28,988 nucleotides of DNA from a virus. Position numbers and translations under genes: made by a program. The notes under the pieces were generated by a model. That model saw only the letters and a list, made by a program, of their open reading frames with translations. It did not search any database and was not told where the DNA came from. The DNA lies in IMG/VR virus record IMGVR_UViG_3300038309_000103, positions 1 through 28,988 of that record, one strand, 5' to 3'. Below, in pieces: positions 1,491 to 22,399 of this stretch (position 1 is the stretch's first letter; the number at the start of each line of letters is the position of its first letter).

Positions 1491-2437
1491 CAGCTCACCT
1501 CGACGTTGTAGCCAGTGCCAAACAGGAGACCTGGCGCAGTGTTACCCGTGGCCGGCAGTGCCGGCATCGTAAACGTGTAGGTGCCCGTACCAGTTTTGGT
1601 CAGCGGCAGGGTCAGTGTATTACTTTGGCTGTCGGTAATTACCGCTTGCGTCGGATCGGTTGCACCCCAGTTCGACGTGGTGATAGTGATCGTGTCCCCT
1701 GGGTTAAGGATCACATCATCGATCGTAAAAGAGGGGCCGGCGGTTGAAAGAACCATCGCCCACGGATCAGAGGTAACGGACGCCAACTCCGAAGCATTGA
1801 GTACCTTATCAAATACGACAATGGCGGCCAGGATGATGGTCCCGTCCGCGCCGACGCTGGTGAGGACTGGTACATCATACGCGCCATTGATGTCCGCGGC
1901 GCCGCCGATAGTGTTCACCTGGTTGGGTAGAACCTCTACGCCATCCAGATAGTAGACCGGCGTACCAACGGTAAAGGCGAACGCACATGCGTGCACACCG
2001 GAGTAGACAGCTTGGTCCTTTCCGAACGTGTTGAACTGATTGGTCTGTGAGCCGCGATTTCCTGTCTCCATGACAAGTTCTACGTCATGGGCATAGTAAC
2101 CGCGTTGCTTATACTGAAGGGCAGTTGGGCTGGTCAGCAGGTCCAAAAACATAACCCCGTCGGCACCGGTGCCCAGTGTGCCGAGGTTTTTCCACGCCAT
2201 GACGATAGTGCTTTCATCCGGGACGCTCAACGTATTGGTTACCAGGTTGGTGCCCGGGTCAAACCGTCGCCCATCCCCCAGGTCTGGGTCATTCACCACC
2301 GTTGATGTACTGGTGATGGCCGTATCGGTCACCAAGTCCTTATCGAGCTGCCCGAACTCCCAGAAGGTTGCGATATTTGCAAACAGTGGGTGCGCGCTAT
2401 CCAGCCCAGTAATGCCTGCTGGTTTTGTCAGACTCAT
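1490..2437 (-). CDS. Tail-associated protein with LamG/ConA-like lectin fold
   Basis: A 315-aa protein. Residues about 20-225 resemble a LamG/concanavalin-like jelly roll: alternating beta strands with STIVMAWKNLG, CAFAFTVGTPVYYLDGVEV and a closing IILAAIVVFDKVLNASEL. Residues about 232-315 form a small Ig-like domain containing NPGDTITITTSNWG. Such domains bind carbohydrate, so a host-surface recognition or tail-fibre accessory role is likely. The ATG at 2437 overlaps the stop of the tailspike gene (ATGA) and is preceded by GGAGG at a 7-nt spacing, so the two are translationally coupled. The stop overlaps the ATG of the next fibre gene. I see no enzymatic residues. It could equally be an uncharacterised structural protein. 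Confidence 0.75.
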   Translation of the reverse strand: MSLTKPAGITGLDSAHPLFANIATFWEFGQLDKDLVTDTAITSTSTVVNDPDLGDGRRFDPGTNLVTNTLSVPDESTIVMAWKNLGTLGTGADGVMFLDLLTSPTALQYKQRGYYAHDVELVMETGNRGSQTNQFNTFGKDQAVYSGVHACAFAFTVGTPVYYLDGVEVLPNQVNTIGGAADINGAYDVPVLTSVGADGTIILAAIVVFDKVLNASELASVTSDPWAMVLSTAGPSFTIDDVILNPGDTITITTSNWGATDPTQAVITDSQSNTLTLPLTKTGTGTYTFTMPALPATGNTAPGLLFGTGYNVEVS

Positions 2438-4338
2438 ACGGTAGCCTCCACTGGGCCGATGGTGTGCGAAACAGCGCGGGGTACGCCATATATGTCGTGT
2501 GTCGAAGTCCTGGCATCAGAAGTCGCTGCTCCGGCCAACGGCGATGTCGGCGGCACAGTGACAATGCAACCGTCAAGTGTGATCTGCGGATCAGCCGCAA
2601 CAGGCGCGCTATCCCAGCTCGGAAGGGTCGCGGCATTCACCGGTGATGCGACAGTGCAGTGCCATCCATTGCTTTGTCCAACGAAGTTGTCCACCTTTTC
2701 CTCAGCGTTGTACGTATATCCGATCCACAGATGGTCCTCTGTCGAATAGACGGCATTATGACTGCATTCCACGGTCATATTGTCGCCGGACTGTCCGCTA
2801 ACTGTGAAGGCGCCTGCATTGGCCTGGTTGAAATCCGGAGTGTGTCTATACACCAGGTTGTTGCGTAGCCACATGGTCCCCAGATACCCGTTTTGGGGAC
2901 CATCGCCAGAGTCCATCAGGCGGAAACCGCCGGCCTCCGGGCCGTCCGACGTCAGCGGGTCTACGCCGTCCCAGGCGGCAGCCTTACCGCACTCAATCAG
3001 CACGTTGTTATATAACAGACTGTCAATATCCCATCCAGTTGAGCAGCCGTTACTAATGCCGGCGCCACCCTGTTCCACTATGACATTGTCATGCGTGGCC
3101 AGATCACCGATCACGATGCCGCCGTAGCCATTTTCGGGCTGGTCGTAGTTATGAATGCCGAATTTGGCGTGGTTCCCATGCAGGAAATTCCAACCCCACT
3201 CCCACGCCTCAACGGTCGGATTGGTCGCGTCTCGCGGCGTCAGGTAGGTGGTATGGTGCAGTTTCGACGAGCCTTTACAGCCGTAGTCGTACACCTCATT
3301 ACCAAACATCTTGTTGTTGCCGACATACGGGTGGCTCCCCTCAATCGCACCCTGGTACCTCGACGCACAGCAATCCACGATGTCGGTAATTCGGTTCGCG
3401 ATTGTGCGAGAGTTTTTGCACACCCGAATACCCCAGGTGTCGCCGCTATCAATTACTCCGCCGACCGGCTGATCGTTGGCATCGACAGCCAGATAATTGC
3501 TGGCGTACACATCGAGCTTACTGACCACCCAGCCCTGGGTTCTATACGGCTCGACCGCTTTTTGTCCAATGACCTTCGGCTGATACCCTGGATACGCAAC
3601 CGTTGCAAACTGCGCATCCAGGGTGCTCAGCGCCGATGCATTGTTCCAATACAGGGCGCGTGCAGTAGGGCTCGTCATGTTCCCTGTATCAACGTCGTGG
3701 ATGTACATCGTGCTGCCAGCCGGGATTGCATTGATCGCATAGCTGGCTGTGGCGAAGGGTTGGTCAAAGGTGCCCGGGTTGCTATCGCTCCCAGTAGACT
3801 TGACGTGGTAAATGGCGCCAGCGCGAACGGTAAACGGCAGCGTATTACTCTCAACGCCCCCCACCTCCAGGCTGATCGTCCCGGCACCATCTACGCTACC
3901 CAGGGGAATGGAAAGCGCGACCTCCTGCATCAAGTGGCTATACCACAGCCGGGCAGGCCCGGACGGCAGCACCCCATCCGCGCGTTTCCAGTAGTAGGTA
4001 GTGCATTCACGCTTCGTACCCTGGGCATCCGTGAAATATGCCTTGCTTGAGCCCTTGGAGTCACCCAGACCCTGACCCCACACAGTCACGATGACGCCGG
4101 AGCCAACGCCGTCCCCCAGCCCAGTGGCAGGACCGGAAATCAGATCGGAAAAACGGAGCAGTGGGGCGGGAGCGCGACTACTCTGTGAGTGGGACAGCCA
4201 ATTCGAGCTGTACCCGGGGTCACTACCGCCGCCTGACCGGGCGCCGCCCCGGCCGGTCACGCTGGTATCGATCAACGGATTACTGGCCGATACCAATCCC
4301 GGGAGATTCGCCAGAGTAATGTTCGCCGGATTTGCCAT
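2434..4338 (-). CDS. Tailspike-like protein: IPT/TIG domain plus right-handed beta-helix (putative depolymerase)
   Basis: A 634-aa protein. The frame opens at a TTG at 4362, but ATG 4338 (MANPANITL) has an AAGGG Shine-Dalgarno sequence 7 nt away and is preferred. Residues 1-65 are low complexity (Gly/Ser) and may attach the protein to the virion. Residues about 78-172 look like an IPT/TIG immunoglobulin-like module (SGVIVTVWGQGLGDSKG ... SLEVGGVESNTLPFTV). From about 176 a parallel beta-helix begins with the typical opening IYHVKSTGSDSNPGTFDQPF and continues with repeated strands (NKMFGNEVYDYG, NFLHGNHAKFGIHNYDQ, ATHDNVIVEQGGAGISN, DSLLYNNVLIECG, LRNNLVYRH). This fold is used by tailspikes that cleave or bind capsular or O-antigen polysaccharide. 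The substrate and active-site residues are not identifiable here. Confidence 0.8.
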   Translation of the reverse strand: MANPANITLANLPGLVSASNPLIDTSVTGRGGARSGGGSDPGYSSNWLSHSQSSRAPAPLLRFSDLISGPATGLGDGVGSGVIVTVWGQGLGDSKGSSKAYFTDAQGTKRECTTYYWKRADGVLPSGPARLWYSHLMQEVALSIPLGSVDGAGTISLEVGGVESNTLPFTVRAGAIYHVKSTGSDSNPGTFDQPFATASYAINAIPAGSTMYIHDVDTGNMTSPTARALYWNNASALSTLDAQFATVAYPGYQPKVIGQKAVEPYRTQGWVVSKLDVYASNYLAVDANDQPVGGVIDSGDTWGIRVCKNSRTIANRITDIVDCCASRYQGAIEGSHPYVGNNKMFGNEVYDYGCKGSSKLHHTTYLTPRDATNPTVEAWEWGWNFLHGNHAKFGIHNYDQPENGYGGIVIGDLATHDNVIVEQGGAGISNGCSTGWDIDSLLYNNVLIECGKAAAWDGVDPLTSDGPEAGGFRLMDSGDGPQNGYLGTMWLRNNLVYRHTPDFNQANAGAFTVSGQSGDNMTVECSHNAVYSTEDHLWIGYTYNAEEKVDNFVGQSNGWHCTVASPVNAATLPSWDSAPVAADPQITLDGCIVTVPPTSPLAGAATSDARTSTHDIYGVPRAVSHTIGPVEATV

Positions 4339-4351
4339 CAGCCTACCCTTG

Positions 4352-4372
4352 AATATTCGCAATGCGCATATT
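4352..4372. promoter_or_regulatory. Dyad element, copy B (operator-like)
   Basis: A 21-bp near-palindrome in the short gap between the giant-protein gene and the tailspike gene. Its core ATTCGCAATGCGCATATT (4355-4372) is identical over 18 bp to a site at 26423-26440, in opposite orientation. The arms are AATAT/ATATT and CGCA/TGCG around one central base, so it looks like a protein-binding operator. No convincing promoter with a usable leader could be fitted here for the tailspike gene. Confidence 0.5.
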
Positions 4373-4377
4373 TTAGC

Positions 4378-7300
4378 CTACTCCAGTAGCCATTGCCATA
4401 CTCCTTTGAACTGGCCAACCAAGGGCGCCATGCCCTTGAGATTTTCCAGCGAGCGGCTCACGTCCACCTGGCCATTATCGATAGCCAGAATCTGCTGGGT
4501 CACGCTCAGCGCGGGTGTCACGGCTCCGGCATACCCGGCCAGTCCCTGGTCCCAGTCGTGCGCTTGCCACAAGCCATACAGCAAATCCCACTGGGCAAAT
4601 GCGCCAGTCTTTCGCGTCAACTCCACCACCAGCTCATCCCAGTCCTCATCGAACCGATCCTGCCCGGCCAGCAACCCACGAAGCCCGAGACTCAGCATAG
4701 CCAGGGGCATCATCAATGCCATCGCCAACATCGGGGTGCCGAGGGACATCATGGCCCCCATCGTGAGCGAATAGCCTTCGGCCTGCGCCTGCCTGACCTG
4801 CTGCTGAATCTGGCGACCCACGCCCATCAGAACGGTGTCGCCGAAGGTCCAAAGGAATTGCTTGAGGTGCCAGATCAGCTTCATGTACGGGTTGTTGCCC
4901 CAGTTCGTCGCCTGGAACTTATTGGGGTTCAACGTGCCCTCGTTCACAAACTGGGAAATCCCGGCGGACACGGTACGGGCCAACTCTGCATTCGGCCCTT
5001 CCATATCCGGTGCGAATGGGGGTCGGCCCAACCGATTCCATTGCAGTACCTGCTCCGGGGTCAAGCCAAGTTTGGCCAGTGATGCGTAGTCCCCATCCGC
5101 CGCCGCTTTGAGAACATAGTGCATCCCGATGGCCGTGCCGACAGTGCGGCTGAGCCGAGTGATGAACTGCTGGCCGTTGACAGTAAAGAACAGGTTGTTG
5201 GCCTTGCTCAGAATCCCGGACTGGTAGCCCTCGCCCATGGACTCACGCATCGCCTGCTCCGCACCGGTGGTCATGGCTGCCCCGATCGCGTGGGCAAAGT
5301 GCTTGGCCTCAGAGTAGTTACGCAGCGACTGCACGATGTCGTTGAATCCAAACCCAGCCCGGATCGCCGCGATAGCCGGCTCTGGGATTGACGCCACGCC
5401 AGAAAAGCCGAGAATCATCAGGTTGATGACGCCTGTGGCCCATTCCTGCGATTTCCGCGCCCATTTATTCACACCCAGGTTGTTATGACCCAATGCACCA
5501 GAGACGAGGTCCTTGACCTCGCGAGCGGCGGAGACGCCCTTCTCGCCTTCGATAGCGCGAAGGGCCTCCTTGTATTTGATATTCGGATCGTAGTAGAGCT
5601 GCTCCCCGGCCTGGACCGCCCGCTGAGCTGACGCCTGTAGTGAAGCCAGGTATTTGCCGTCCTTAGTGACATAGCCGCCGAACGTCGATTCCCACGCGGT
5701 GCGTTTGGCCAGCCCGGCAGCCAGGTGTTGCAGCATCCCGAAACCCTTGTCGAGCAGGAACCCGGCCTCGGCCAATTTCTCAGGGCCAATGGCCAAGATC
5801 AATGTGCGGGCTGCTTCATGGGTACCGACCGGCTTGCCCGGCCCCATCGGCTCATGCCCCAGTTCTTCAATGCCATACCCCTCGATGATCCGGTCGATTT
5901 GCTGGTTCAGTTCCTCGTCAGTCGCCCCAGGCAACACCTCTTTCGCCATCGCCATCAACTCACCGCGCTTAGCTTCAACCGCGGTGTGATCGAACACATA
6001 CGGGGTAAACCCGTTCATGAACTGTCCGGACGACCAGCCCTGACGCTGCGCATCTTTGAGCAGGGTATCGATCGTCTTGCGCAGGATGCGGGCACCCTCG
6101 GTATCCTTACCCTCGCGCATCTCCGTATACGCCTGGTCCACTGCCGCCTGCTGGCCCCGCCCCTTCTTGATCTGGTCAAACGCCCGCTGCAGGTGCGCCG
6201 CCCAGCTATTGGCCAGGGTGTTGCGCTTCTGCTCATAGGAGCCCTGCCCGACCCGGGTCTGGTTCGCGGATTGGAACAGCATCCCGGCCAATTCCGGGTT
6301 GGCACTGCGAATCCGACCGATGACCGACCGATACAATCCTGTAGGACGGAGCATACCCTTCAACGTCCGCTTGATCCGGGAGTCCACCCCAGATGGGGGT
6401 AGCGGCTTTTCATCCGGTGTGTAGTGCATGGTCACCGGCGACCCAACGTTATAGCGATGGGACAACGGCATTTCTCCACGCAAAATGCGTCGGGCGAATT
6501 CATCGAATTTCAAGTTCAGCTTGAACCGGGACAGCCGCCGCACCGCCTTGTCCGACTGGATCGCGTCCCACATCCGTTTCAGATTGTCGATCACGAACCG
6601 CAGCGCTTTGCCAAGTACACCCTTGGCATCCAGGTACTGGCTGCGCCGGTCGCCGGTGACATCTTTAGCAATGGCCGCGCTCATCTGGTCGGCGAACCAT
6701 TCCTTGAATCCGGTGAACCCCTCCTTGCCGTTATAGCTCCAACCGTGGTCCGCTTGATACAAATCAAACAGGGCGTTCCGCTCCGCTTCTGGCAGCAGGT
6801 GCCAGCTCTGGTCATAGAGCATGTGCCCCAGCTCGTGACCAAAAACCAACGACCATTCCGCCGGATTGGTGCCGGGCTGCAAAGCGTCCATAGAGATCAC
6901 CACGGTCGGCCCGAGGTTGATATAGCCGGGTCGAGCCGCCAGTTTGGCCAGCTCTTTCGGGGTGACCAAATGTCCAGCGTCACGGGCGATACGCTCCAAC
7001 TCCGCCAGATCACCGGTTTCCACCAGCGTGATGGGCGTCTGCAGGAAGCGCGTGCGCTGCTCCCCTTTCATGCCTTTGGAAACTTGCAGCAACAACCGCC
7101 GGGTGAACCCGGCCAGCGCCTGGAACGATTGGCGCTTGGCTGCTCTGCCTCGGACCTTGGTGCCGGTAAAGTTCTTTTTGGCTTTACGCGGGCGGGGCGC
7201 CTGTGGCTGCTCGGCTTGGACTTCCGTCAAACCCGCATCCAGTGGCAACTGCATCCCGCGCATGGGGGCACTCAACCGGACAAATCGGCTCTCGCTCTCC

Positions 7301-10300
7301 GCCAGCTGCTCCGCTTCAAAGGCCACCGCCGCCTCGACTTCAGACAACTCGGCGCCACGCTCATTGCGAAACACCGATTGGTCCATCGGGTCTGGGACAA
7401 AGCCATCGGCCTCCTCGTACAGCTCGCCCTCGATCTGCAGTGAACTTTCACCGCTACTGGCCATTTCGGCCATCTGCCGGTCGAAGCCCTCCTCGTCGAT
7501 GTCGTTACGCGAGTCGGCCTGACGGTCGGCCAACTCCGCTTGCCAGCCCCGCAAGCTAGTGGTCATTTCACCGGCGCCATCCTGTACAGCCGCGCTCAAT
7601 CGCTTAATCTTACCTAGCAAGCTTAAGCGCTGATCAAGCAGGGATTTCAGCGATCCAATTACACCATGCCCGAAATCAACCGCTATCAATCGAGCTACTT
7701 GATCACGAGTCGCCTTTTCATCATCGATCGAACGCCGATTAGCACTGACTTCCTCATCCCGTAACGACCGGAGTCTAGCCTCCGCCTCCGCTACCCGGTC
7801 ATGGCGGCGCTTTAGTATCCGCTCCTGGTCCCGTTGCGTGAGACGTGTGGGCCCAGACGCCATACGGTTCTGAAACTCCTCCAAGTGATCACGGGCCTCA
7901 CGTAATTCGATCCGGGCCTGTTGCAGCCGAGTCTCAATCCGTTTGGTACCTGAGCGACGCGCTTCCCGCTGCTCGTACCAAGTCGTGTTTACATTGGCCG
8001 TGATATCAGCCAACGCAGCGACTGTTTCCGCATCGCCCGCATCCTCTGCGACCGACCGCATTTGAGACAGTGTCAGCTCGATTAAATCTTCTAGCTGCTG
8101 TAGCTCCTCGCTGGCCTGGTCCCGCAGTGCTGCTGCCTCGGCAGTTTTGGATCGACGTGCCTTACCCTGCTCCCGCTGGGTCCGGGCCTCGCCCGCTGTC
8201 ACCGGTGCGCCATCCGGGTCAAACCAGACCACGATGTCGTCGGCCACTTGTGGTAGGCCGGCAGCTTTCATACGCTCCAGGTGGCTGGATTCCGGTCCCT
8301 GAGCCAAACGAGCAAGGTTGCTCTCCAGGTTGGTGATTGCTTCCGCTGCCGTGACTGGATGACGGTCCTTGGCGTAATTGGCAAGCGTCACCGCGTCCAC
8401 CAGCTTAAACACCGGTCCGGTCATACCGCTGTACTCGATCAGCAGCAGATTCTGCCCGCGGGCCTTGTTGGTGTAGGTGCGGGCGCGAGCCTCTCCCTCG
8501 GTAGTGAACTGGGTCAGCTCATTGGTAAACGTAGCCGCATTCAGCTCAGCCAATCGGGTCAGCAACCGGTCCCGATACTGGGTGTCGAAAGCCACCGGGT
8601 CGGCCATGAACTGGCCGCGAATCTGCTGATAGTCCTTCTCCGCCTCGCTCCATTGCTCCGGCGGTAGCGCCTCACTGCGAGCCTCCAAAAATTGCGGCAG
8701 TTTCAGGGTCGCCTGATTTACCGTGCGGTAAAACACCAAGTCGGACTGCTCCTGCGGATCACGCTCCTGCGCCGACGGGTAGGACTCGGCCTGCGGCGTC
8801 CCGCTATTGGAATAGGCGTTGCGCAGTTCGCTCTCAATCTCGGTGGCCACGTCCCCGATCAACAAATTCTCTGACAAAGCGTCGATGATCGCTTGCTCCG
8901 GATTGTTGCGGTGATTGGCCGCCAGCAACCGCAAGCCTTCCGCCAACTGCTCCTCGGCACGAGACTCTTGGTCCAGTGGGATTTCGAATTGCACCGTCAT
9001 GTAGCGGATCAAATGCCGTAGGCGCTGTTCGATGTCGGCAGGATTCGCGGCGTTGCGGATCGCATCGATATCCGACCTGAACTGCAGCAGGGCCACCGGA
9101 GCTGCCAAATGTTCCGTCTGGTGCGGCCAGTGCCGAGCCCAGTAGGCTGACTCCAGTGCACCGGTGTCCAGACCCAACCCTACCAACCCGGCCAGCCGTT
9201 GAATGACACTCAGGTCCCGCACCGACTGGGTGATGAACGCCCGACGAGCCGGGTTCAGGGTACGGGCCTCGGCCTCAGCTTCAGCTTCCGCTTCGGCGGC
9301 TTCCTCGGCGGTAGGCGCCCGGCGACTCTGTTTCTCGGCCTGAATCTGGCGGTCCAGTACCCGATTGCCTGTCTGCGGTGCCTGCGCCTCCAACCCGAAG
9401 GGGATTTCTTCCTCCAGCTGGGTCTGGCTGACGAAGTTGGTCCGCATCTTCTTGGCCCGATCATCCAGCTCCCGGAACAGACCGCGTACATCGTCCAGGG
9501 TCTTTTCGCCCTGCTCCGTCAAGTCGTTGACCTTGGCCCCCAGCACCTCGGCCAGCCCAATCAGGCTATTGTCGTCCATATCAGGCAGCCGATTGATCAG
9601 GCTGTTGACCGACCCACCCTCACCGACATAGCGGCGGACGGCCCGTGCCAATACCGGTTTGGGTAGATCACCGCGCAACTTGGCTTTGAGACGGGGCATC
9701 AGGTACTTGCGCCCACCCTCCATCAGCGCTTCGTTGCGTACCAGTTCTACCCCGGCGTCCTTGGCTGCCTTGCGCCATTCCGCATCAGATGCATTATCCA
9801 GTTCCGCCACTGCCCGATCAGCCAGCTCAAACGAGGTACCGTGCGGGGTCCGGGCGTACTTGGCCGCCAGCTTCTTGTTCCGGGACAGGGCTTTGCGGAT
9901 CGCTTCGCGGGTACGCTCCCGATCTACCGGCACCACAGTCTTCTGGAACCGGGCCGGGTCAATGCCGAGGCGGTTCAGGGTTTCGTTCAGCTCGGCCACG
10001 TCCAGTCGACCGGCCTGGAGGTCAGCCATCAGTTCATCTACCGGGCGCAGTTTGCCCTCGGCGTTGTACACCGATGCCGCCGGTGTGCCCGGCTCGGACG
10101 GTGCCCGGCGCTTGGCTTGTGCCTCGCGGGCCGGGCTCTGGCCCAGGTCGCCCAGCACAGCAGTATCCAGCGTGAATTCCGGCACCTGCGCATCGGCCTG
10201 CTCCCGGGCCAGTCCGTCCAGCGAACCACGCTCAGCCTGGCGCCGGGCCTGACGTTCAGCCAGTACATCCTCCGGTTTCCGGACACGGATGTCCGCATCC

Positions 10301-12159
10301 GGGTTGGCCTGCGCTACGGCAGCGACCGTGCGCTCCAGGTTATCCTCATCGGTGACCGCCGCTTCGAGCGTGTTGCCCTCGGCGTCCACCGCGTGCACCA
10401 CCTGCTGGGTCTGCTCCGGGTTCAGTTCAGATTTGGGGGTAAAACCCCTGGCACGAGCCAGTGCATCCCCAGTCAGGGGCGTCGCCGGGTCCAACAGCGG
10501 GTCATTTGGGTCGTTGGTCAGATAAAGCGAACCGTCTTCGCTCTCGCGCCGGAAGACTTCGCCATCAAACGCGGCTACAGCGGCCGCCTCATCTCCCCTG
10601 TTCGCCGGAGCCAGCCACACCGACCCTCGACGTTTTGCCCTTGCCTCTAAATCAGAAACAGGATCAGGATCGGTTGCCTCGGGGTTGAAGTTGTGTTCTT
10701 TGCGCTGACGCTCATTGACCTCACGCCGGAGGTTCCGACGCATACCGGCCAACCCTGACACGGTAGCCCCAGTCGTACCGATCGCCCCGCCGAAGATGCC
10801 GCCCCGGATACCCGCATCGAGTACCTGCGTCAAATCCACGTTATCCAGGTCAAGTTCGCGGTTCGGGTCCAGCTCCATGATGCTCAGCTCGTCCATGAAC
10901 TGCTGCAGCATTTCCGTGGTGCCTTCGGCCATGAAACCGACACCACCGGTTTGCATTGCCTTGCCGGCAATGTCGCGAAGCCGTACCACTTTCCCGGCCT
11001 CACGCAGGGTGTCAGCCAGCTCCTTCGCCGCGTCGGCACTGCCGCCCTTCATCACCCGCCGCAGGATAGTCTCCAGAGAGGCCAGTTCCAGGGCTGCTTT
11101 GGCCGAGCCCACCCCCCACGCGTGCAGCAGCGCACCATCAGTGTCTTCCAGCCCTTCGCCAAACTGCTGCTGACGGGTCTCACCAACCATCTGGGCCTCG
11201 ATGGAGGTGCCCATGCCCACGGTGCCTGCCCGCCCCAACAGCACTCCCTTGGCGCTGAATGCCCCCTTGGCTATCTGTCCAGACTTGGCCAGTGCAGCCG
11301 ATCCGGCGAGTTTGCGCATCGCCGCTTTGCCCACACCGGCAACCAACATAGACCCGGCGCCAGTAGCCAGCGCCGCACCAATGTCCACGGCCAGCTGAGG
11401 AGCGTTTTCGATGAGCGTTTCCAGCACATACAGACCGACGCCTTCATAGCCTCCGGCCAACGCTTCTTCATAGTTGGCAATCCGGGCCGGATTCAGGGCC
11501 GCTTCGGTCATATTCCGCAGCATTCCGTCCTCGCCCCATTTCTCCAGGGCGTCGATACCCGTGGTCTTACCCAGCACCTCGGCAAAGCCGTACAGAGAGC
11601 TTTGCAAATTATCCACGCCCCGGCCAAACGCCGCTTCTGCCGCATTGTTACGGTTCATTCCCCGGGTGCGGGTATGAAGCGGTTGAGCGAGGAGGTTTTC
11701 AAAGCGGTTGCGCAGAAAATCCAGGTTCTCCCGGTCAGACTGCTCGACGTACCGGTCCCATTCCGGGCGCACGCGATTGCCAGTGGCCTGGTCGACGACG
11801 CCCAGGTGCATGAAGTTCATGGACTCGCGGTTCGGCGCAGCCAAGCCTCGACGGATCATATCCTGGCCAACGTTACCCTGGTCGTCAACGACATCCACCA
11901 GTTCCCGACCATGGCGGCCAGTAGCCCCGGTGCTCTGTACCTGTGCGCCACTGTCCAGGGCTTGTTGCAGCGCCTGCCGGGCCGGCTCGGCCCCGGGCAT
12001 ATCCACCGGCACTTCGCGCCCGGCCCGCTCCGGGGTATCCCCGTGCCGCAGACGTTGATTACCGTTTGGCCCGTACACCCCATCGCCGTCATATGCCGAC
12101 CCCTCCCGTTTCTCGACGAGGCGTTGCCAGCGGGTCAGGCGATCTTGGTCAATGGGCAT
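4378..12159 (-). CDS. Giant polyvalent virion (ejection-type) protein with SNase-like and HExxH metalloprotease-like domains
   Basis: A 2593-aa protein starting at ATG 12159 with AAAGGA 8 nt upstream. Residues 1-110 carry staphylococcal-nuclease-like signatures: DGDG (24-27), RLRHGDTPE (36-44), GRHGRE (81-86) and MIRRGLA (101-107). Residues about 230-330 are hydrophobic and Ala/Gly-rich. Residues about 600-1700 are charged and partly coiled coil. HELGH at 1775-1779 followed by KEWFAD (Glu1820) is a zinc-metallopeptidase signature. Near residue 2423 NPYMKLIWHLKQF, followed by a hydrophobic segment (about 2470-2495), resembles the LPD38-type region of polyvalent proteins. It lies after two internal-virion candidates, as T7 gp16 and other ejected proteins do. 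The inferred job is entry into the cell with the DNA, perhaps processing itself or host targets. It is preceded by its own terminator. Confidence 0.8.
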   Translation of the reverse strand: MPIDQDRLTRWQRLVEKREGSAYDGDGVYGPNGNQRLRHGDTPERAGREVPVDMPGAEPARQALQQALDSGAQVQSTGATGRHGRELVDVVDDQGNVGQDMIRRGLAAPNRESMNFMHLGVVDQATGNRVRPEWDRYVEQSDRENLDFLRNRFENLLAQPLHTRTRGMNRNNAAEAAFGRGVDNLQSSLYGFAEVLGKTTGIDALEKWGEDGMLRNMTEAALNPARIANYEEALAGGYEGVGLYVLETLIENAPQLAVDIGAALATGAGSMLVAGVGKAAMRKLAGSAALAKSGQIAKGAFSAKGVLLGRAGTVGMGTSIEAQMVGETRQQQFGEGLEDTDGALLHAWGVGSAKAALELASLETILRRVMKGGSADAAKELADTLREAGKVVRLRDIAGKAMQTGGVGFMAEGTTEMLQQFMDELSIMELDPNRELDLDNVDLTQVLDAGIRGGIFGGAIGTTGATVSGLAGMRRNLRREVNERQRKEHNFNPEATDPDPVSDLEARAKRRGSVWLAPANRGDEAAAVAAFDGEVFRRESEDGSLYLTNDPNDPLLDPATPLTGDALARARGFTPKSELNPEQTQQVVHAVDAEGNTLEAAVTDEDNLERTVAAVAQANPDADIRVRKPEDVLAERQARRQAERGSLDGLAREQADAQVPEFTLDTAVLGDLGQSPAREAQAKRRAPSEPGTPAASVYNAEGKLRPVDELMADLQAGRLDVAELNETLNRLGIDPARFQKTVVPVDRERTREAIRKALSRNKKLAAKYARTPHGTSFELADRAVAELDNASDAEWRKAAKDAGVELVRNEALMEGGRKYLMPRLKAKLRGDLPKPVLARAVRRYVGEGGSVNSLINRLPDMDDNSLIGLAEVLGAKVNDLTEQGEKTLDDVRGLFRELDDRAKKMRTNFVSQTQLEEEIPFGLEAQAPQTGNRVLDRQIQAEKQSRRAPTAEEAAEAEAEAEAEARTLNPARRAFITQSVRDLSVIQRLAGLVGLGLDTGALESAYWARHWPHQTEHLAAPVALLQFRSDIDAIRNAANPADIEQRLRHLIRYMTVQFEIPLDQESRAEEQLAEGLRLLAANHRNNPEQAIIDALSENLLIGDVATEIESELRNAYSNSGTPQAESYPSAQERDPQEQSDLVFYRTVNQATLKLPQFLEARSEALPPEQWSEAEKDYQQIRGQFMADPVAFDTQYRDRLLTRLAELNAATFTNELTQFTTEGEARARTYTNKARGQNLLLIEYSGMTGPVFKLVDAVTLANYAKDRHPVTAAEAITNLESNLARLAQGPESSHLERMKAAGLPQVADDIVVWFDPDGAPVTAGEARTQREQGKARRSKTAEAAALRDQASEELQQLEDLIELTLSQMRSVAEDAGDAETVAALADITANVNTTWYEQREARRSGTKRIETRLQQARIELREARDHLEEFQNRMASGPTRLTQRDQERILKRRHDRVAEAEARLRSLRDEEVSANRRSIDDEKATRDQVARLIAVDFGHGVIGSLKSLLDQRLSLLGKIKRLSAAVQDGAGEMTTSLRGWQAELADRQADSRNDIDEEGFDRQMAEMASSGESSLQIEGELYEEADGFVPDPMDQSVFRNERGAELSEVEAAVAFEAEQLAESESRFVRLSAPMRGMQLPLDAGLTEVQAEQPQAPRPRKAKKNFTGTKVRGRAAKRQSFQALAGFTRRLLLQVSKGMKGEQRTRFLQTPITLVETGDLAELERIARDAGHLVTPKELAKLAARPGYINLGPTVVISMDALQPGTNPAEWSLVFGHELGHMLYDQSWHLLPEAERNALFDLYQADHGWSYNGKEGFTGFKEWFADQMSAAIAKDVTGDRRSQYLDAKGVLGKALRFVIDNLKRMWDAIQSDKAVRRLSRFKLNLKFDEFARRILRGEMPLSHRYNVGSPVTMHYTPDEKPLPPSGVDSRIKRTLKGMLRPTGLYRSVIGRIRSANPELAGMLFQSANQTRVGQGSYEQKRNTLANSWAAHLQRAFDQIKKGRGQQAAVDQAYTEMREGKDTEGARILRKTIDTLLKDAQRQGWSSGQFMNGFTPYVFDHTAVEAKRGELMAMAKEVLPGATDEELNQQIDRIIEGYGIEELGHEPMGPGKPVGTHEAARTLILAIGPEKLAEAGFLLDKGFGMLQHLAAGLAKRTAWESTFGGYVTKDGKYLASLQASAQRAVQAGEQLYYDPNIKYKEALRAIEGEKGVSAAREVKDLVSGALGHNNLGVNKWARKSQEWATGVINLMILGFSGVASIPEPAIAAIRAGFGFNDIVQSLRNYSEAKHFAHAIGAAMTTGAEQAMRESMGEGYQSGILSKANNLFFTVNGQQFITRLSRTVGTAIGMHYVLKAAADGDYASLAKLGLTPEQVLQWNRLGRPPFAPDMEGPNAELARTVSAGISQFVNEGTLNPNKFQATNWGNNPYMKLIWHLKQFLWTFGDTVLMGVGRQIQQQVRQAQAEGYSLTMGAMMSLGTPMLAMALMMPLAMLSLGLRGLLAGQDRFDEDWDELVVELTRKTGAFAQWDLLYGLWQAHDWDQGLAGYAGAVTPALSVTQQILAIDNGQVDVSRSLENLKGMAPLVGQFKGVWQWLLE

Positions 12160-12176: not shown

Positions 12177-12203
12177 AAAAAGCGCACAGTGTTGACTGTG
12201 CGC
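12177..12203 (-). terminator. Intrinsic terminator upstream of the giant-protein gene
   Basis: On the minus strand GCGCACAGT-CAAC-ACTGTGCGC forms a perfect 9-bp stem with a 4-nt loop, followed by TTTTT (12177-12181). It sits between the 606-aa gene and the giant-protein gene, so it should reduce expression of the giant ejection and tail genes relative to the genes upstream. A TATAAT lies directly upstream at 12204-12209, but no good -35 was found. Confidence 0.8.
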
Positions 12204-12231: not shown

Positions 12232-14052
12232 TCACTTCCTGAGGTTGAGCAACGCCCGTTGAGCCGCCGCACCGGGACTCATGTTCGGGTTGTTGCGCAA
12301 CACCTCGGCCGCCGCTTTCCCTACTGCCGCTTGGGTGTCAGGGTCCATGGCATCGCCATCGCTGTTCAACTGCGCCAACGCCAGCTGCATCACCTGTCCC
12401 AGTCGACCGGCCTCCACACCCTCGGTAAACAGCTGCCATGCCATGGACAGGTTCGGCTCATTACCCACACCGGCCAGGGCCGTAGCATCCAATCCGATTT
12501 TCTGAATTACGCCATGGAGGCGCGGGTCCTTCACCATCGCCTTGAATTGAGGGTCGCTGTTAGCCAGCGTTGTAAGTTGAGAGCGCAGATGCTCGCCGCC
12601 ACGCTTGTCCGCGACCGTCTTCAACTTACCATCTTCGTACACGGTAAAGGTCGCTCCATCGGCGAGAGTATTCGCCAGATTGTTCACGGTCTTGGCAAAA
12701 TCCGCCTGGGCGGCTTCCGGGGTCGTGTCTGACCGGCCTGTGGTCCAGAGGTTGCGGTTCTGTTCGGCGGTATAATTCGCGCCATTGATCGACTCGTTTC
12801 GACGAACCACATCACGCAGGCTACGGGCCGTCTGCTCCACGGCGCTCTGCCAGCTGTTCTGGCGCTGGCCAAGGGTCTCATTCTGGCCGATGGCCTGCAG
12901 GTTCTGGGTCAGTGCCGCCAATTGGCCTTTAAGTACCTGCTCACGCTGGTCCAGCTCGGCCATCTGCTCTTGTTCGACTTCTGTCAGAGTGCTCGGAACA
13001 TTCAGTCCTGTTTCGCCAAACACCCCATTCTGACCGTTCTGGCCCAACGTCCGGCTACCCGCCCGCTGTCGCGACTGAGTCAACGCTTCTCGTTGCGCCT
13101 GCAACTCCGCCAGCTGTGCCTCCAGCGCATCGCCCTCGGCCTGCAGCTCCTCGACTTTGCGCCCCTGGTACTCCTCCGCCACCGGCAGTGCCTGTGGCTT
13201 CGGATCGGCCAGAGCGGTTGCTCGGTCGCGAGCCTGTCCGAGTACCAACCGGTCACGGGCGGAACCGCCCTGCGCACCCCAGCTGGCGGACTGATTGAGC
13301 TTGCCGAGCAGTGCATCATAAATCTGCGCAGCTTCCTCGACCGAGATGACTCGGGGTTCACCATTGGCATCTACGGAGTCGGGGTCGACCCGCAGGGGGC
13401 CTCCAGGCGTACTTTCCTCCATGGCGATGTAGCCGACAAACTTCCCGTTCTCGTAATGGGGTTTCATCAGTGCAATAGAGTCTTCCCCAAACCCGTCCCC
13501 GGTGATCTCGGAGGATGCGGACATGGTAGCAATGGCCGCTGCGTAATCCTTCGGGTTCTGGGCCATTTCGATCCCGGTCGGCATCGAGCCGTCTTCTTTG
13601 ACAAACGTCTGCATCAGCTCCTGGCTGTAGGTAGCGCGCCCCCGAAGCTCTGCGATTTTTTGCAGAAGAGCATCCGTCCGATTCTGCGCGTTGGTCGCAT
13701 CCACCCGACCCTGGGAGGTGGCCTGGTTCTCGGTCAACTGCAGCTGCGCCGTCTCGTTCTGGGTCCTTTGATTCGTGTTCAGGAGCCTGCGGTTTTCGTT
13801 CTCCAGATTCAGTCCTTCCAGTCGTACCGGGTTGGTCTGCTTGTTGAAGTCAACCTCCTGAGACACCAGCTTGGTGAGTGCTTGAAGGCGCCCGATTTGA
13901 GCCTCGTTCAGGTCAATGCGGGAATCGTTCATGCGCACGTTCTCGCCGTGCGTCAGGTCAAATTGGCGAGCGTTCTCCGCCTCGTTCGAGCGCCAGCGGT
14001 AGGCATTGTCGAGGCTGCGGAAAGTATTATTGAACCCTTCACTGAATGCCAC
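12232..14052 (-). CDS. Probable internal virion protein, coiled-coil rich
   Basis: A 606-aa protein starting at GTG 14052, with AGGAGG just upstream; the stop codon of the preceding gene overlaps this ribosome site. The N-terminal 130 residues are helical, Asn/Gln/Glu/Arg-rich and heptad-like (VRMNDSRIDLNEAQIGRLQAL, QLQLTENQATSQGRVD). Residues about 295-400 are again strongly coiled coil (GRKVEELQAEGDALEAQLAE, EQEQMAELDQREQVLKGQL). No signal peptide, membrane helix or catalytic motif is evident. Position between a small gp14-like protein and the giant protein mirrors the internal-core gene order of T7-like phages (gp14, gp15, gp16), so a DNA-ejection core protein is inferred. No homologue was recognised at sequence level. 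Confidence 0.75.
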   Translation of the reverse strand: MAFSEGFNNTFRSLDNAYRWRSNEAENARQFDLTHGENVRMNDSRIDLNEAQIGRLQALTKLVSQEVDFNKQTNPVRLEGLNLENENRRLLNTNQRTQNETAQLQLTENQATSQGRVDATNAQNRTDALLQKIAELRGRATYSQELMQTFVKEDGSMPTGIEMAQNPKDYAAAIATMSASSEITGDGFGEDSIALMKPHYENGKFVGYIAMEESTPGGPLRVDPDSVDANGEPRVISVEEAAQIYDALLGKLNQSASWGAQGGSARDRLVLGQARDRATALADPKPQALPVAEEYQGRKVEELQAEGDALEAQLAELQAQREALTQSRQRAGSRTLGQNGQNGVFGETGLNVPSTLTEVEQEQMAELDQREQVLKGQLAALTQNLQAIGQNETLGQRQNSWQSAVEQTARSLRDVVRRNESINGANYTAEQNRNLWTTGRSDTTPEAAQADFAKTVNNLANTLADGATFTVYEDGKLKTVADKRGGEHLRSQLTTLANSDPQFKAMVKDPRLHGVIQKIGLDATALAGVGNEPNLSMAWQLFTEGVEAGRLGQVMQLALAQLNSDGDAMDPDTQAAVGKAAAEVLRNNPNMSPGAAAQRALLNLRK

Positions 14053-19262: not shown

Positions 19263-21421
19263 TATGCGTTACCTCTCTTCTCATTGCCCTGAGTGCGTTG
19301 TTGCTGCGCCAAATAGCGCTGGGTTTCCGTCTGCTTCTGGACCGTGGCCAATTGAACAGCGCTCTGGACCGACTGCTTCTGGGAATTGAACCGGTGAGTC
19401 ATCTGAGCCAGCTCGATGCGGGTCATCAGTTCCTCACGCTTGGATTGAATCTTCGCTTCCAGCTCCTGCAGGCGCAGCTGGTTCTCCGGCGAATCCATAC
19501 CGCCAGCCTCCTGCGTAGCCTTGGCCATGTTCAGGTACATCCGGCTCTCGATCTCGCCGGCCTCAGCCATGAGCTTCTTCAACTCGCCCTGGAGCGTCTG
19601 CATCTGCAGCTCCTGCTGCATTTGCATCAACTGCAGCTCCTGTTCGGTCGGCTCGGCCATACCCGCCAGCTCCTTGAGTTGTTCGGCGATCTCATCGCGA
19701 TCCGCCAACCCGCTATACTGGACAATGATGTGGTCCGGGATCATGATGCCGTTGCTGCGCAGTTCCAGGGCCTTGGCGAACTGAATATCGTCGTAAGTGT
19801 CCCGGCTCGGCTGCACCGAGACGGTAGCGTCATACTTGCCCTTGGTAATGTCGTTGTGGATCGCGCCGGTGATCGTCGGGGCGTTAATTTCGAGGGTCTC
19901 GGTACGCTCCTCACCCATCTTCGGATGAGTCTTGGTGATGTTCACCACCCGATGCTCTGTGTAGTACTGCTGGAACAGCTCCAGCAGCTTGCGGCCGAGA
20001 ATGCGACGGGTCCGTGCAAGGTTGGTGAACGGTACTTGCAACTGGACATTGGCCCGGTTCTGTTTACCTTCCAGCGCTACGCCACTGATCTCCGGTGACG
20101 CAATGCCGAGCACACCCTCCATCCCGGAAATCTCCCGCAGGAACTGCCGCGACTTGTTGGAAATCAGCTCCAGCCCGGTCGGAATTGGGTTCGGTTTCAC
20201 TTTCTCGGGAGGCCTTGAGCCGCGGGCATGCACCAGTACCAGCCCGGTCTCGGCCCCGCGCTCGGCCAGCTCGTCTTCGTCCATATTGACCAGCGTGCCT
20301 TCCTCCACTGTCCAGCCAGAGTTGGCGGTCGTGTTGATTACATGCAGCTCCTGGCTGGTGGTCTTATTCAAGTGGTCCTGGGAACCGATCAGGTTCTTGA
20401 CCATGCCCATCGGTTTACCGCGCAGGAAGTACGGGAAATACGGCACGATGGTGAAACTGTCATAGGGCGACCAATCGTCGTGCAGTACAACGTGGTCGCA
20501 GGTCACAGTCCAACGGATACGAGACGAAGGTTTACGGTGAATCATCAGGCCAAACTGCATCCCGAAGGCTTCTCGCTGTTCAGCCGACCAGCTCATCGGC
20601 ACCGGGCTCATATCCCCAGTGCGCGGGTCGATGTAGTAGTAGGCGTTCACCAGCCGTCGATACTGGCGCGAGATCACGCGCACATTCTTGATCTGCTTCT
20701 CGCCGCCGAGCCCGGCGTTATACTCCCATTGCGTCCAGTCCGGTTCACCAAAGGTGTTGCGGTTGAACTCAAAGCTGTCGTAGCTGTAATAACTGCCGGC
20801 GGCCACCAACCCTTCGACCTGTTCACGCTTGTCCTTCCCGAACGTGTTCTCGATCTCATCCAGCGTCTGCCAATAGGTCCGGGTCACCCGGTTCCAGGTC
20901 TTGGGGTCGTACTCTTTAGCATCGACGTCCAGGACGATCTCGGTCGGGTCCACGGACGAAATCCGGACTTCGCCCTGCATGTGCTCGCTAAAATCCATGC
21001 GCACATCCAGGTAACCTCGATCCGAAACAAACCCGTCGATGACCATGTCCCACTCAGCCGAGTCGAAGTCGTTGTCATCCAGCGTGTGCATGGCCAGTTT
21101 GGTCAGTATCTGGCTCAAGTCATGGGCGCCCCGGTGCTTGGCTTTGTACCCGATCCGGGCCTGCCGTTGGCTGTACTCACCCAGGGCCGCGTTGATCGTC
21201 GACAGAATCAGGTTGATGGTCAGCGCCGGGCGACCTTCTTCCTCCAGCTTCTTGAGCACCGCAGCTTCCCACTGCTCGCCCATGTAGTAGTTCTGGTATT
21301 TCTCGGCCTCTTTGACATAGTCAATGTGCCCTGCGTCCCGGTCGCGCAGGTAGCACTGCCACTGGCGCTCAGCCAATAGACGGTCGGTCTCCGGTACAGC
21401 TTTGAACGCCGTATCAGCCAT
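19262..21421 (-). CDS. Portal protein, P22 gp1-like
   Basis: A 719-aa protein starting at ATG 21421, overlapping the end of the dUTPase gene by 8 bp. It begins with a helical segment ending NYYMGEQWEAAVLKKLEEEG, then RPALTINLILSTINAALGEY and a stem/wing body containing SSVDPTEIVLDVDAKEYD, FTIVPYFPYFLRGKPMGMVK and NLIGSQDHLNKTTSQELH, which is characteristic of P22-like portals. A late NGIMIPDHIIVQYSGLADRD precedes a Gln/Glu-rich C-terminal coiled coil (about 590-719), comparable to the P22 barrel. The dodecameric portal is the DNA gateway and docks terminase. Its length is close to P22 gp1 (725 aa). The pairing with an N4-type capsid is noteworthy. Confidence 0.88.
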   Translation of the reverse strand: MADTAFKAVPETDRLLAERQWQCYLRDRDAGHIDYVKEAEKYQNYYMGEQWEAAVLKKLEEEGRPALTINLILSTINAALGEYSQRQARIGYKAKHRGAHDLSQILTKLAMHTLDDNDFDSAEWDMVIDGFVSDRGYLDVRMDFSEHMQGEVRISSVDPTEIVLDVDAKEYDPKTWNRVTRTYWQTLDEIENTFGKDKREQVEGLVAAGSYYSYDSFEFNRNTFGEPDWTQWEYNAGLGGEKQIKNVRVISRQYRRLVNAYYYIDPRTGDMSPVPMSWSAEQREAFGMQFGLMIHRKPSSRIRWTVTCDHVVLHDDWSPYDSFTIVPYFPYFLRGKPMGMVKNLIGSQDHLNKTTSQELHVINTTANSGWTVEEGTLVNMDEDELAERGAETGLVLVHARGSRPPEKVKPNPIPTGLELISNKSRQFLREISGMEGVLGIASPEISGVALEGKQNRANVQLQVPFTNLARTRRILGRKLLELFQQYYTEHRVVNITKTHPKMGEERTETLEINAPTITGAIHNDITKGKYDATVSVQPSRDTYDDIQFAKALELRSNGIMIPDHIIVQYSGLADRDEIAEQLKELAGMAEPTEQELQLMQMQQELQMQTLQGELKKLMAEAGEIESRMYLNMAKATQEAGGMDSPENQLRLQELEAKIQSKREELMTRIELAQMTHRFNSQKQSVQSAVQLATVQKQTETQRYLAQQQRTQGNEKRGNA

Positions 21422-21881
21422 CGCTCATTCCCCCTGTAGAGCCAAAGCCGCCGCTGCCCCGGTCGGTTTGATCGGTAAAGTCGGTCAATTCTACCACATC
21501 AGGCGTGGCTACGGGCACAATAACCAGCTGAGCGATCTTGTCGCCCCGGCGGATCGTGCGGGTTTCATCGCTCTCGTTGCGCAGGAGCACCTGGAGTTCG
21601 CCTCGGTAGTCCCAATCGATCAATCCAGCCTTGCGGTCAATCTCGCGCTTGGCCGCCCAGCCACTGCGAGGCCAGATTTGCCCCGCGTACCCGGTCGGGA
21701 TGGCAACACGCCAACCGGTCGGAATCAATTTCTGCTGCCCCGGCTCAATTTCGCAGTTAATCGCGGACGGTAGATCATATCCCGCCGAGCCTTCGGTCTG
21801 GCGCAGTGGCAGGGGTAAGGGGTCTGTGCCCATTGCCTCCTGCAGCTGCTCCTGTTCCCACGCCGTTCGCGCAAACCCCAT
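21414..21881 (-). CDS. dut: dUTP diphosphatase (dUTPase)
   Basis: A 155-aa trimeric-type dUTPase that hydrolyses dUTP to dUMP and pyrophosphate. All five conserved motifs are present in order: SAGYDL (32-37), PRSG (71-74), GLIDWDYRGE (86-95, catalytic Asp in ID), RGDKIAQLV (112-120) and RGSGGFGSTG (141-150). The start chosen is ATG 21881 because it shares a base with the o-spanin stop (TGATG), implying translational coupling, and because the resulting length matches the family. The same frame is, however, open upstream into the i-spanin-like gene. Placement of a nucleotide-pool enzyme between lysis and portal genes is unusual. It overlaps the portal start. Confidence 0.93.
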   Translation of the reverse strand: MGFARTAWEQEQLQEAMGTDPLPLPLRQTEGSAGYDLPSAINCEIEPGQQKLIPTGWRVAIPTGYAGQIWPRSGWAAKREIDRKAGLIDWDYRGELQVLLRNESDETRTIRRGDKIAQLVIVPVATPDVVELTDFTDQTDRGSGGFGSTGGMSDG

Positions 21882-22187
21882 CACGGGCACTGCGTCTCCA
21901 CGGCCTCGAAGTACATTAGCAATCGCGCCACGTCGTCTGGTCCCAGCTTCACGCCCTCGGAAGTAGCAGATGGCAGCACTGGCGTAGGGGGAGGGCAGTT
22001 CGGGTTCGGCGGCTTGCTGATCCCTGTCAGCAGACATCCCGCCAAACCGCTCGTTCCAAGCAGCAATAGGGTCACTTTTAATACGGTCGATCCGGGCACG
22101 CTTCTCCTCCTTATCCCGCAAAGCGATCAGGTTCTGAATGCCTTCAAGTAAAAGTAGCGCCACCTTGGCCCAGACCGCCGCGCTCAT
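21414..22187 (-). CDS. i-spanin-like N-terminus whose frame continues without a stop into dUTPase
   Basis: ATG 22187 (overlapping the holin-like stop, TAATG) starts MSAAVWAKVALLLLEGIQNL followed by a charged helix and IKSDPIAAWNERFGG (residues 1-50). An apolar N-terminus, charged helix and W..RFG ending are typical of small phage i-spanin/Rz-like proteins, which usually stop soon after FGG. Here no stop occurs: translation would run through about 52 residues of o-spanin shadow (51-102) into a complete dUTPase, giving 257 aa. Either a genuine fusion exists, or a stop codon has been lost and dUTPase is mainly made from its own ATG at 21881. The spanin call is by context and general pattern. Confidence 0.5.
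   Translation of the reverse strand: MSAAVWAKVALLLLEGIQNLIALRDKEEKRARIDRIKSDPIAAWNERFGGMSADRDQQAAEPELPSPYASAAICYFRGREAGTRRRGAIANVLRGRGDAVPVMGFARTAWEQEQLQEAMGTDPLPLPLRQTEGSAGYDLPSAINCEIEPGQQKLIPTGWRVAIPTGYAGQIWPRSGWAAKREIDRKAGLIDWDYRGELQVLLRNESDETRTIRRGDKIAQLVIVPVATPDVVELTDFTDQTDRGSGGFGSTGGMSDG
21881..22099 (-). CDS. o-spanin-like (Rz1-type) lipoprotein, embedded in another frame
   Basis: A 72-aa product from GTG 22099, which has a strong AAGGAGGAG Shine-Dalgarno sequence 4-5 nt upstream. The N-terminus is a lipoprotein signal, VLKVTLLLLGTSGLAGC, with lipobox LAGC; the mature part starts at the Cys and is Pro-rich (SKPPNPNCPPPTPVLPS), as in Rz1 proteins. Outer-membrane o-spanins pair with an inner-membrane i-spanin to fuse membranes at the last step of lysis. 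It lies entirely inside the i-spanin-like/dUTPase frame in a different phase, an arrangement known for Rz/Rz1. Its stop is coupled to the dUTPase start. Confidence 0.75.
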   Translation of the reverse strand: MPGSTVLKVTLLLLGTSGLAGCLLTGISKPPNPNCPPPTPVLPSATSEGVKLGPDDVARLLMYFEAVETQCP

Positions 22188-22399
22188 TACTTCGGGCCTT
22201 TCGGGTCGGCGTTTTTGACCGCCAGCGCCAGGGGCTTGATGATCTTCTCGAAGATCAGGCCAGGCCATTTATCGTCCTTGGGGGTTGGGGTCAGGGCTAC
22301 GATGGCACTGGCCACCGGGTGCAGGGCCAACAGGACGGCTACGGTCTTGCCGAACCAGCCCAGGGTGTTCCACAGTTCAATGATCTGAGTAATGTCCAT
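22187..22399 (-). CDS. Small membrane protein, holin candidate
   Basis: A 70-aa protein from ATG 22399, with GAGG 9 nt upstream. It has one clear apolar segment (GKTVAVLLALHPVASAIVAL, about residues 17-36), then TPTPKDD, a weaker amphipathic helix and a basic C-terminus. One membrane helix with a charged tail, next to spanin-like genes, makes a holin or lysis regulator the best guess. No endolysin gene is visible beside it. Stop and next start overlap (TAATG). Confidence 0.6.
   Translation of the reverse strand: MDITQIIELWNTLGWFGKTVAVLLALHPVASAIVALTPTPKDDKWPGLIFEKIIKPLALAVKNADPKGPK

Follow-up and report, generated by a model that had tools for sequence, protein, structure and literature searches.

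A giant phage protein with an SNase-like N-terminus, a zincin-like site and a probable ejection-core region

What would a phage do with a single protein of 2593 amino acids that carries nuclease-like motifs at its N-terminus and a metalloprotease-like motif in its C-terminal half, and would such a protein travel with the virion? The question is raised by a window (the whole stretch of DNA analysed here) of 28,988 bases that constitutes the sequence of an IMG/VR virus record. The 2593-aa ORF, assigned to a giant ejection-type polyvalent protein from the ORF list and its homologues, was found at 4378..12159, exactly as given in the initial annotation, and lies on the minus strand, which had been left unstated there. 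It has its own ATG start and its own stop, and a ribosome-binding-like AAAGGA is located 5' of the ATG. Upstream of the giant ORF, a head-gene cassette on the minus strand comprises a terminase small-subunit-like ORF and genes for the large terminase, the portal, the major capsid protein (PF13252), an SU10-type adaptor and further virion proteins. A 606-aa ORF (12232..14052, minus strand) lies directly upstream of the giant ORF and is a possible second ejection-complex protein, a candidate role taken only from its position, which was compared with that of gp51 next to gp50 in N4. Between both ORFs there is a terminator-like stem-loop of 9 pairs followed by a T run (12182..12203, minus strand), which possibly reduces expression of the giant protein.

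Other ORFs of the window, all on the minus strand, showed features of their own. The large terminase ORF (940 aa, 23005-25827) is interrupted by an intein-like insert (about Cys250 to Asn602; TGAH/C ... VHN/C), which sits immediately before the LVIDD motif and is flanked on both sides by the terminase profile matches. A 642-aa ORF (2434-4362) has a weak beta-helix match to PF22842 (E 2.2e-4, below the cut-off) and perhaps encodes a tail spike, and in a 284-aa ORF (21414-22268) a dUTPase domain is confined to residues 147-280.

The metalloprotease-like signature lies within a zincin-like domain delimited by alignment and structure modelling at residues 1690-1901 (6457..7092, minus strand). HELGH occupies residues 1775-1779 (6823..6837, minus strand), and E1820, which belongs to EWFAD and is the presumed third zinc ligand, is encoded at 6700..6702 on the same strand; both were located by motif and alignment. 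In 5000 shuffles of the giant protein, HExxH appeared in 3.5% and HExGH in 0.26%, while HExxH followed by E[WFYH][FYVIL][AS][DE] appeared in 0.02%. When the 124 distinct closed relatives were counted, 116 were found to have HExxH, and 108 of those also fit a strict downstream pattern; this pattern is unmatched as written in KPP25, L139, L140, L144, L152, L153, L277 and L288. The H, E and H of the motif and the downstream E were invariant in a 50-row zincin alignment (A7), in which, as in alignment A3, every row had been preselected for HExxH, the downstream E being the only unbiased result in A7. The AlphaFold model of residues 1690-2593 had a mean pLDDT of 72, and its residues 1690-1901 aligned with lethal-factor-type zincin structures with Z 6.2-6.4 over about 141 residues (rmsd about 5; VIA-align) and with ECE-1 with Z 4.5. 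Profile searches yielded a Peptidase_M48 match with E 0.011 and no Pfam zincin match above the cut-off, and the zincin alignment, when searched against PDB sequences, returned motif-level matches only (best E 0.047). The HELGH and downstream Glu pointed out at residues 1775-1820 by the initial annotation are, given the presence of HExxH in the relatives and the alignment of the segment with zincin structures, a predicted zincin-like site. As HExxH is absent from eight of the 124 relatives (L138, L165, L280, L281, L284, L291, L293 and L300), the zincin is predicted to be dispensable in some lineages.

The preferred target of this putative peptidase is the phage protein itself. Iyer et al. (2017; PMC5512222), who used a lethal-factor-type structure to identify the peptidase domain of the N4 vRNAP, favour self-processing by zincins and cite P1 DdrB; in the same article, the N4 vRNAP, which bears the same kind of zincin domain, is described as packaged unprocessed. 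Host proteins would be the alternative target, and conservation of the site throughout the family, together with the resemblance of the fold to a zincin acting on foreign proteins, speaks in its favour. Nevertheless, no host target is known and the argument of Iyer et al. goes the other way, and we regard cleavage of host proteins as unlikely, although it is the most serious of the competing explanations.

At the other end of the protein, residues 19-113 (11821..12105, minus strand) are, as judged from Pfam, profile and alignment, an SNase (thermonuclease) domain with a complete predicted active site (D24/D26, R36, E44 and R85). The motifs DGDG, RL..GDTPE and GR, from which an SNase-like N-terminus had initially been proposed, were indeed found at residues 24, 36 (RLRHGDTPE) and 81 (GRHGRE). 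PF00565 matched residues 1-130 alone with 21.7 bits (cut-off 21, E 3e-4), but the score fell to 20.3 bits, below the 21-bit cut-off, when 220 residues were given, and the match went unreported when the whole giant protein was scanned, short pieces being required; NCBIfam gave nothing useful for this domain. A profile built from nine relatives, excluding the window, scored the window protein with 55.8 bits, and profiles of six sequences and of ten related N-termini matched staphylococcal nuclease with E 1.1e-10 and E 1.9e-14, respectively. Among these ten N-termini, Pfam detected SNase above the cut-off in seven (window, phiA008, L138, L156, L277, L286 and L297), placed L165 below it and missed L139 and L299. 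The AlphaFold models covered residues 1-520 and 1690-2593, and the SNase part, modelled inside the former, was of low confidence (block pLDDT about 35-74). SNase structures were the best Foldseek matches of this low-confidence model, at a non-significant best E of 0.29, and superposition on them gave a Z of only about 4 across 73-79 residues.

Conservation at the putative active site was strict. The ten aligned SNase N-termini are 23-33% identical to the window protein, and only D24, D26, R36, E44, G78 and R85 are invariant in all of them. Profile alignment pairs D26, R36, E44 and R85 with D21, R35, E43 and R87 of staphylococcal nuclease (residue numbers counted on the aligned chain), which we take to be its active-site positions. 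The refutation test proposed in the initial annotation, namely whether homologues fail to conserve the catalytic residues, was passed by both enzymatic assignments, since the SNase positions are kept in 10 of 10 rows and HExxH in the majority of relatives indicated above. A domain of this kind might nonetheless have lost the ability to cut and serve as a binding or scaffolding module, for instance by gripping DNA in the head or the channel. At the position equivalent to D40 of staphylococcal nuclease, presumably the second calcium ligand, the ten rows have either D or N, and the window reads DGDG in place of DGDT, both of which fit a binding module. However, binding alone would not require the positions equivalent to D21, R35, E43 and R87 to stay invariant at such low identity, and we consider the loss of cutting improbable.

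The distribution of the SNase domain was studied in relatives reached via the capsid and then via the C-terminal module of the giant protein. A total of 188 ORFs was obtained, and counts were made on the 124 that were distinct and closed at both ends; 50 of 82 loci were searched, those omitted being mostly short contigs. As these relatives came from seeded searches, the frequencies given here are not population rates. A viral scan queried with the whole giant protein produced no pattern match, another that used a two-row SNase alignment left no relative confirmed, and a scan with the adaptor recovered one short contig. SNase was found in 11 of the 124 relatives, a count made with a profile built from 10 rows that all fall within those 11. 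Others carry a lysozyme, GH19 or transglycosylase domain, and most have no N-terminal enzyme. In a Pfam scan of 74 N-termini (73 of 80 distinct ones plus the window, seven near-copies being omitted), SNase was detected in five, Phage_lysozyme in three, GH19 in one and SLT in one, peptidoglycan hydrolases thus amounting to 5/74. One relative, the 3114-aa ORF of L132, contains two HExxH zincin motifs in one protein, and its N-terminus looks GH19-like by eye, the GH19 match in the scan being 1 of the 74.

Scans with the C-terminal module revealed an SNase-like N-terminus in L138, L139 (the same protein as L298), L156, L165, L277, L286, L288, L297 and L299. Two SNase members, L138 and L165, are without HExxH, indicating that SNase and zincin are independent modules. 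In a C-terminal tree, the six SNase rows were among the early branches of the midpoint-rooted drawing and required 2 changes compared with a shuffled mean of 5.8; the window stands beside KPP25 on a very long branch, which makes the number of SNase gains or losses unsure. Three of these giants were found in bacterial records, L297 in Motiliproteus coralliicola C34 (contig of 1.54 Mb), L298 in Parendozoicomonas haliclonae (contig of 0.70 Mb) and L299 in an Endozoicomonas MAG, which points to SNase-bearing giants in prophages of marine bacteria.

This patchy distribution bears on a further explanation, according to which the nuclease would serve the DNA cycle of the phage itself, for instance by trimming genome ends or setting them free within the particle, instead of attacking foreign DNA. 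Fusion to a head-internal protein would indeed place the nuclease beside the packaged genome. Against this, only 11 of 124 proteins sharing the core carry the nuclease, which argues that the ejection machine has no general need of it, and a sequence-unspecific nuclease inside the head would endanger the genome; such a role seems to us even less probable than a binding module.

The C-terminal 660 residues are probably, according to the structure model, like the ejection core proteins of the podophages PhiM1 and T7. This helical, ejection-core-like region, delimited by alignment and model, spans residues 1933-2593 (4381..6363, minus strand), with a conserved C-terminal module at about 2190-2560. 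When the model of residues 1690-2593 was searched with Foldseek, the sole PDB match under 1e-3 was a PhiM1 ejectosome chain (E 6.7e-5, probability 1.00), and the four best rows of VIA-align were core proteins of PhiM1, T7 (9jyy), 7eyb and phage E1004, with Z 10.7, 9.7, 7.4 and 7.3 and rmsd 5.5-6.7 across 208-271 residues. The TM-score of the ejection-core match is low (TMq 0.21), and helical proteins may attain such Z values by chance. Matches in BFVD included internal core proteins, the structural protein of KPP25 and a number of entries named 'large polyvalent protein associated domain'. The C-terminal module, searched against PDB sequences, had no match below E 0.7. Further towards the N-terminus, a helical module at residues 164-475 (10735..11670, minus strand; PHROG 6958, model and hydropathy) contains one hydrophobic stretch (residues 256-274), has part of its helices at high pLDDT and is also found in relatives without an N-terminal enzyme. 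Profile scans recognised no domain in the middle region (residues 476-1700; 7060..10734, minus strand), and Pfam LPD models had no match in the giant protein.

The initial proposal that the protein belongs to the virion and enters along with the genome is favoured by the position of the gene among head and tail genes, the likeness to PhiM1 and T7, and the fact that the homologue in KPP25 is annotated as a structural protein of the virion. We infer from these data that the giant protein is present in the virion and is ejected, probably serving a short-tailed phage as a core protein whose N-terminal tip can be swapped. That it is instead a multidomain protein with a cytoplasmic or regulatory role, lying among head genes by accident, is favoured directly by none of the results and is very improbable in view of the ejection-core resemblance, the KPP25 annotation and the position of the gene.

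Comparison with known systems revealed both shared and distinctive traits. Residues 1933-2402 align structurally with the PhiM1 and T7 core chains and, as in the available descriptions of T7 gp16, whose N-terminus is a transglycosylase, an enzyme precedes the core. In contrast to these proteins, the N-terminal enzyme of the window is a predicted nuclease and not a peptidoglycan hydrolase, a zincin is added and the protein is about twice as long. Further counterparts are ORF88 of KPP25 and UIS74281.1 of Aeromonas phage phiA008, both homologous to the window protein over the C-terminal module with about 27% identity. The phiA008 protein also combines an N-terminal SNase (36.2 bits, clearer than that of the window) with a zincin motif, whereas KPP25 ORF88 lacks SNase sequence at its N-terminus and has HESMH in a different context; KPP25, a Podoviridae member according to a paper title in the reference list of PMC13340246, is a distant relative.

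The layout is also reminiscent of N4 gp50 as outlined in PMC12633501, with an N-domain bearing membrane helices, a middle enzyme, a C1 domain with HExxH and a large helical C2, but residues 476-1700 of the window protein have no RNA polymerase match. A weak PHROG vRNAP match (E 0.0031) fell only in the N-terminal helical module. No homology to N4 gp50 was found in hhalign comparisons with the C- and N-parts of a single N4 sequence, which gave probabilities of 0.4 and 0.2%. A fit to polyvalent phage proteins, also put forward initially, holds for the multidomain build and the zincin, since Iyer et al. (2017; PMC5512222) describe very large multidomain late-gene products with zincin-like peptidases, the phage-type ones also bearing lysozyme domains. 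In contrast, SNase or thermonuclease is absent from the main text of that article, which presents the ParB DNases of polyvalent proteins as unaccompanied by other DNase domains. No phage ejection protein bearing an SNase domain was found in the open-licence literature searched; within that literature, the large multidomain build with a zincin is already known and the DNase tip is apparently new.

The reading that we favour, with a probability of roughly 0.6, is that the giant is an ejection core protein whose SNase-type DNase cuts non-self DNA at entry and whose zincin cleaves the protein itself. The protein would be packed in the head, pass through the tail at infection and help to build a DNA channel across the envelope. 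Its N-terminal DNase, standing in place of the transglycosylase of T7 gp16 and the lysozymes of the relatives, would be carried in with the channel. Its non-self target at entry would be either the host chromosome or DNA present in the envelope space, such as that of a competitor phage or any other DNA coming in, while the DNA of the phage itself would be protected by its path through the interior of the channel. The zincin would most likely cleave its own polypeptide, as proposed for other polyvalent proteins, and could thereby free domains or complete assembly.

Where the DNase would act is a more tentative matter, and host-DNA degradation is only one possibility among several. If T7 gp16 is taken as a guide, the N-terminus might reside in the periplasm and not in the cytoplasm. 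SNase enzymes are usually calcium-dependent and free calcium is low in the cytoplasm, which together weaken the version in which the chromosome is degraded; the calcium need, like the comparison with T7, speaks for the envelope space as the site of action, the cytoplasm being less likely. A more specific scenario places the injected DNase in the calcium-rich envelope space, where it would be anchored on the outside of the channel and destroy the DNA of rival phages or other DNA coming in, the genome of the phage itself being safe inside; as a whole, this scenario is speculative and unlikely.

With these results, a predicted DNase type joins the enzymes apparently injected by phages along with their genomes, and the N-terminus of ejection proteins seems to be a position at which cargo can be swapped. 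If the rival-exclusion scenario is true, an N-terminal tip that is normally occupied by a wall-cutting enzyme, or by nothing, would have become an injected DNase in a family of podophage ejection proteins, providing immediate, virion-borne exclusion of rivals. The prophage-like relatives in marine bacteria offer a testable case for locating the site of action of an injected nuclease and for learning how the genome that enters escapes it.
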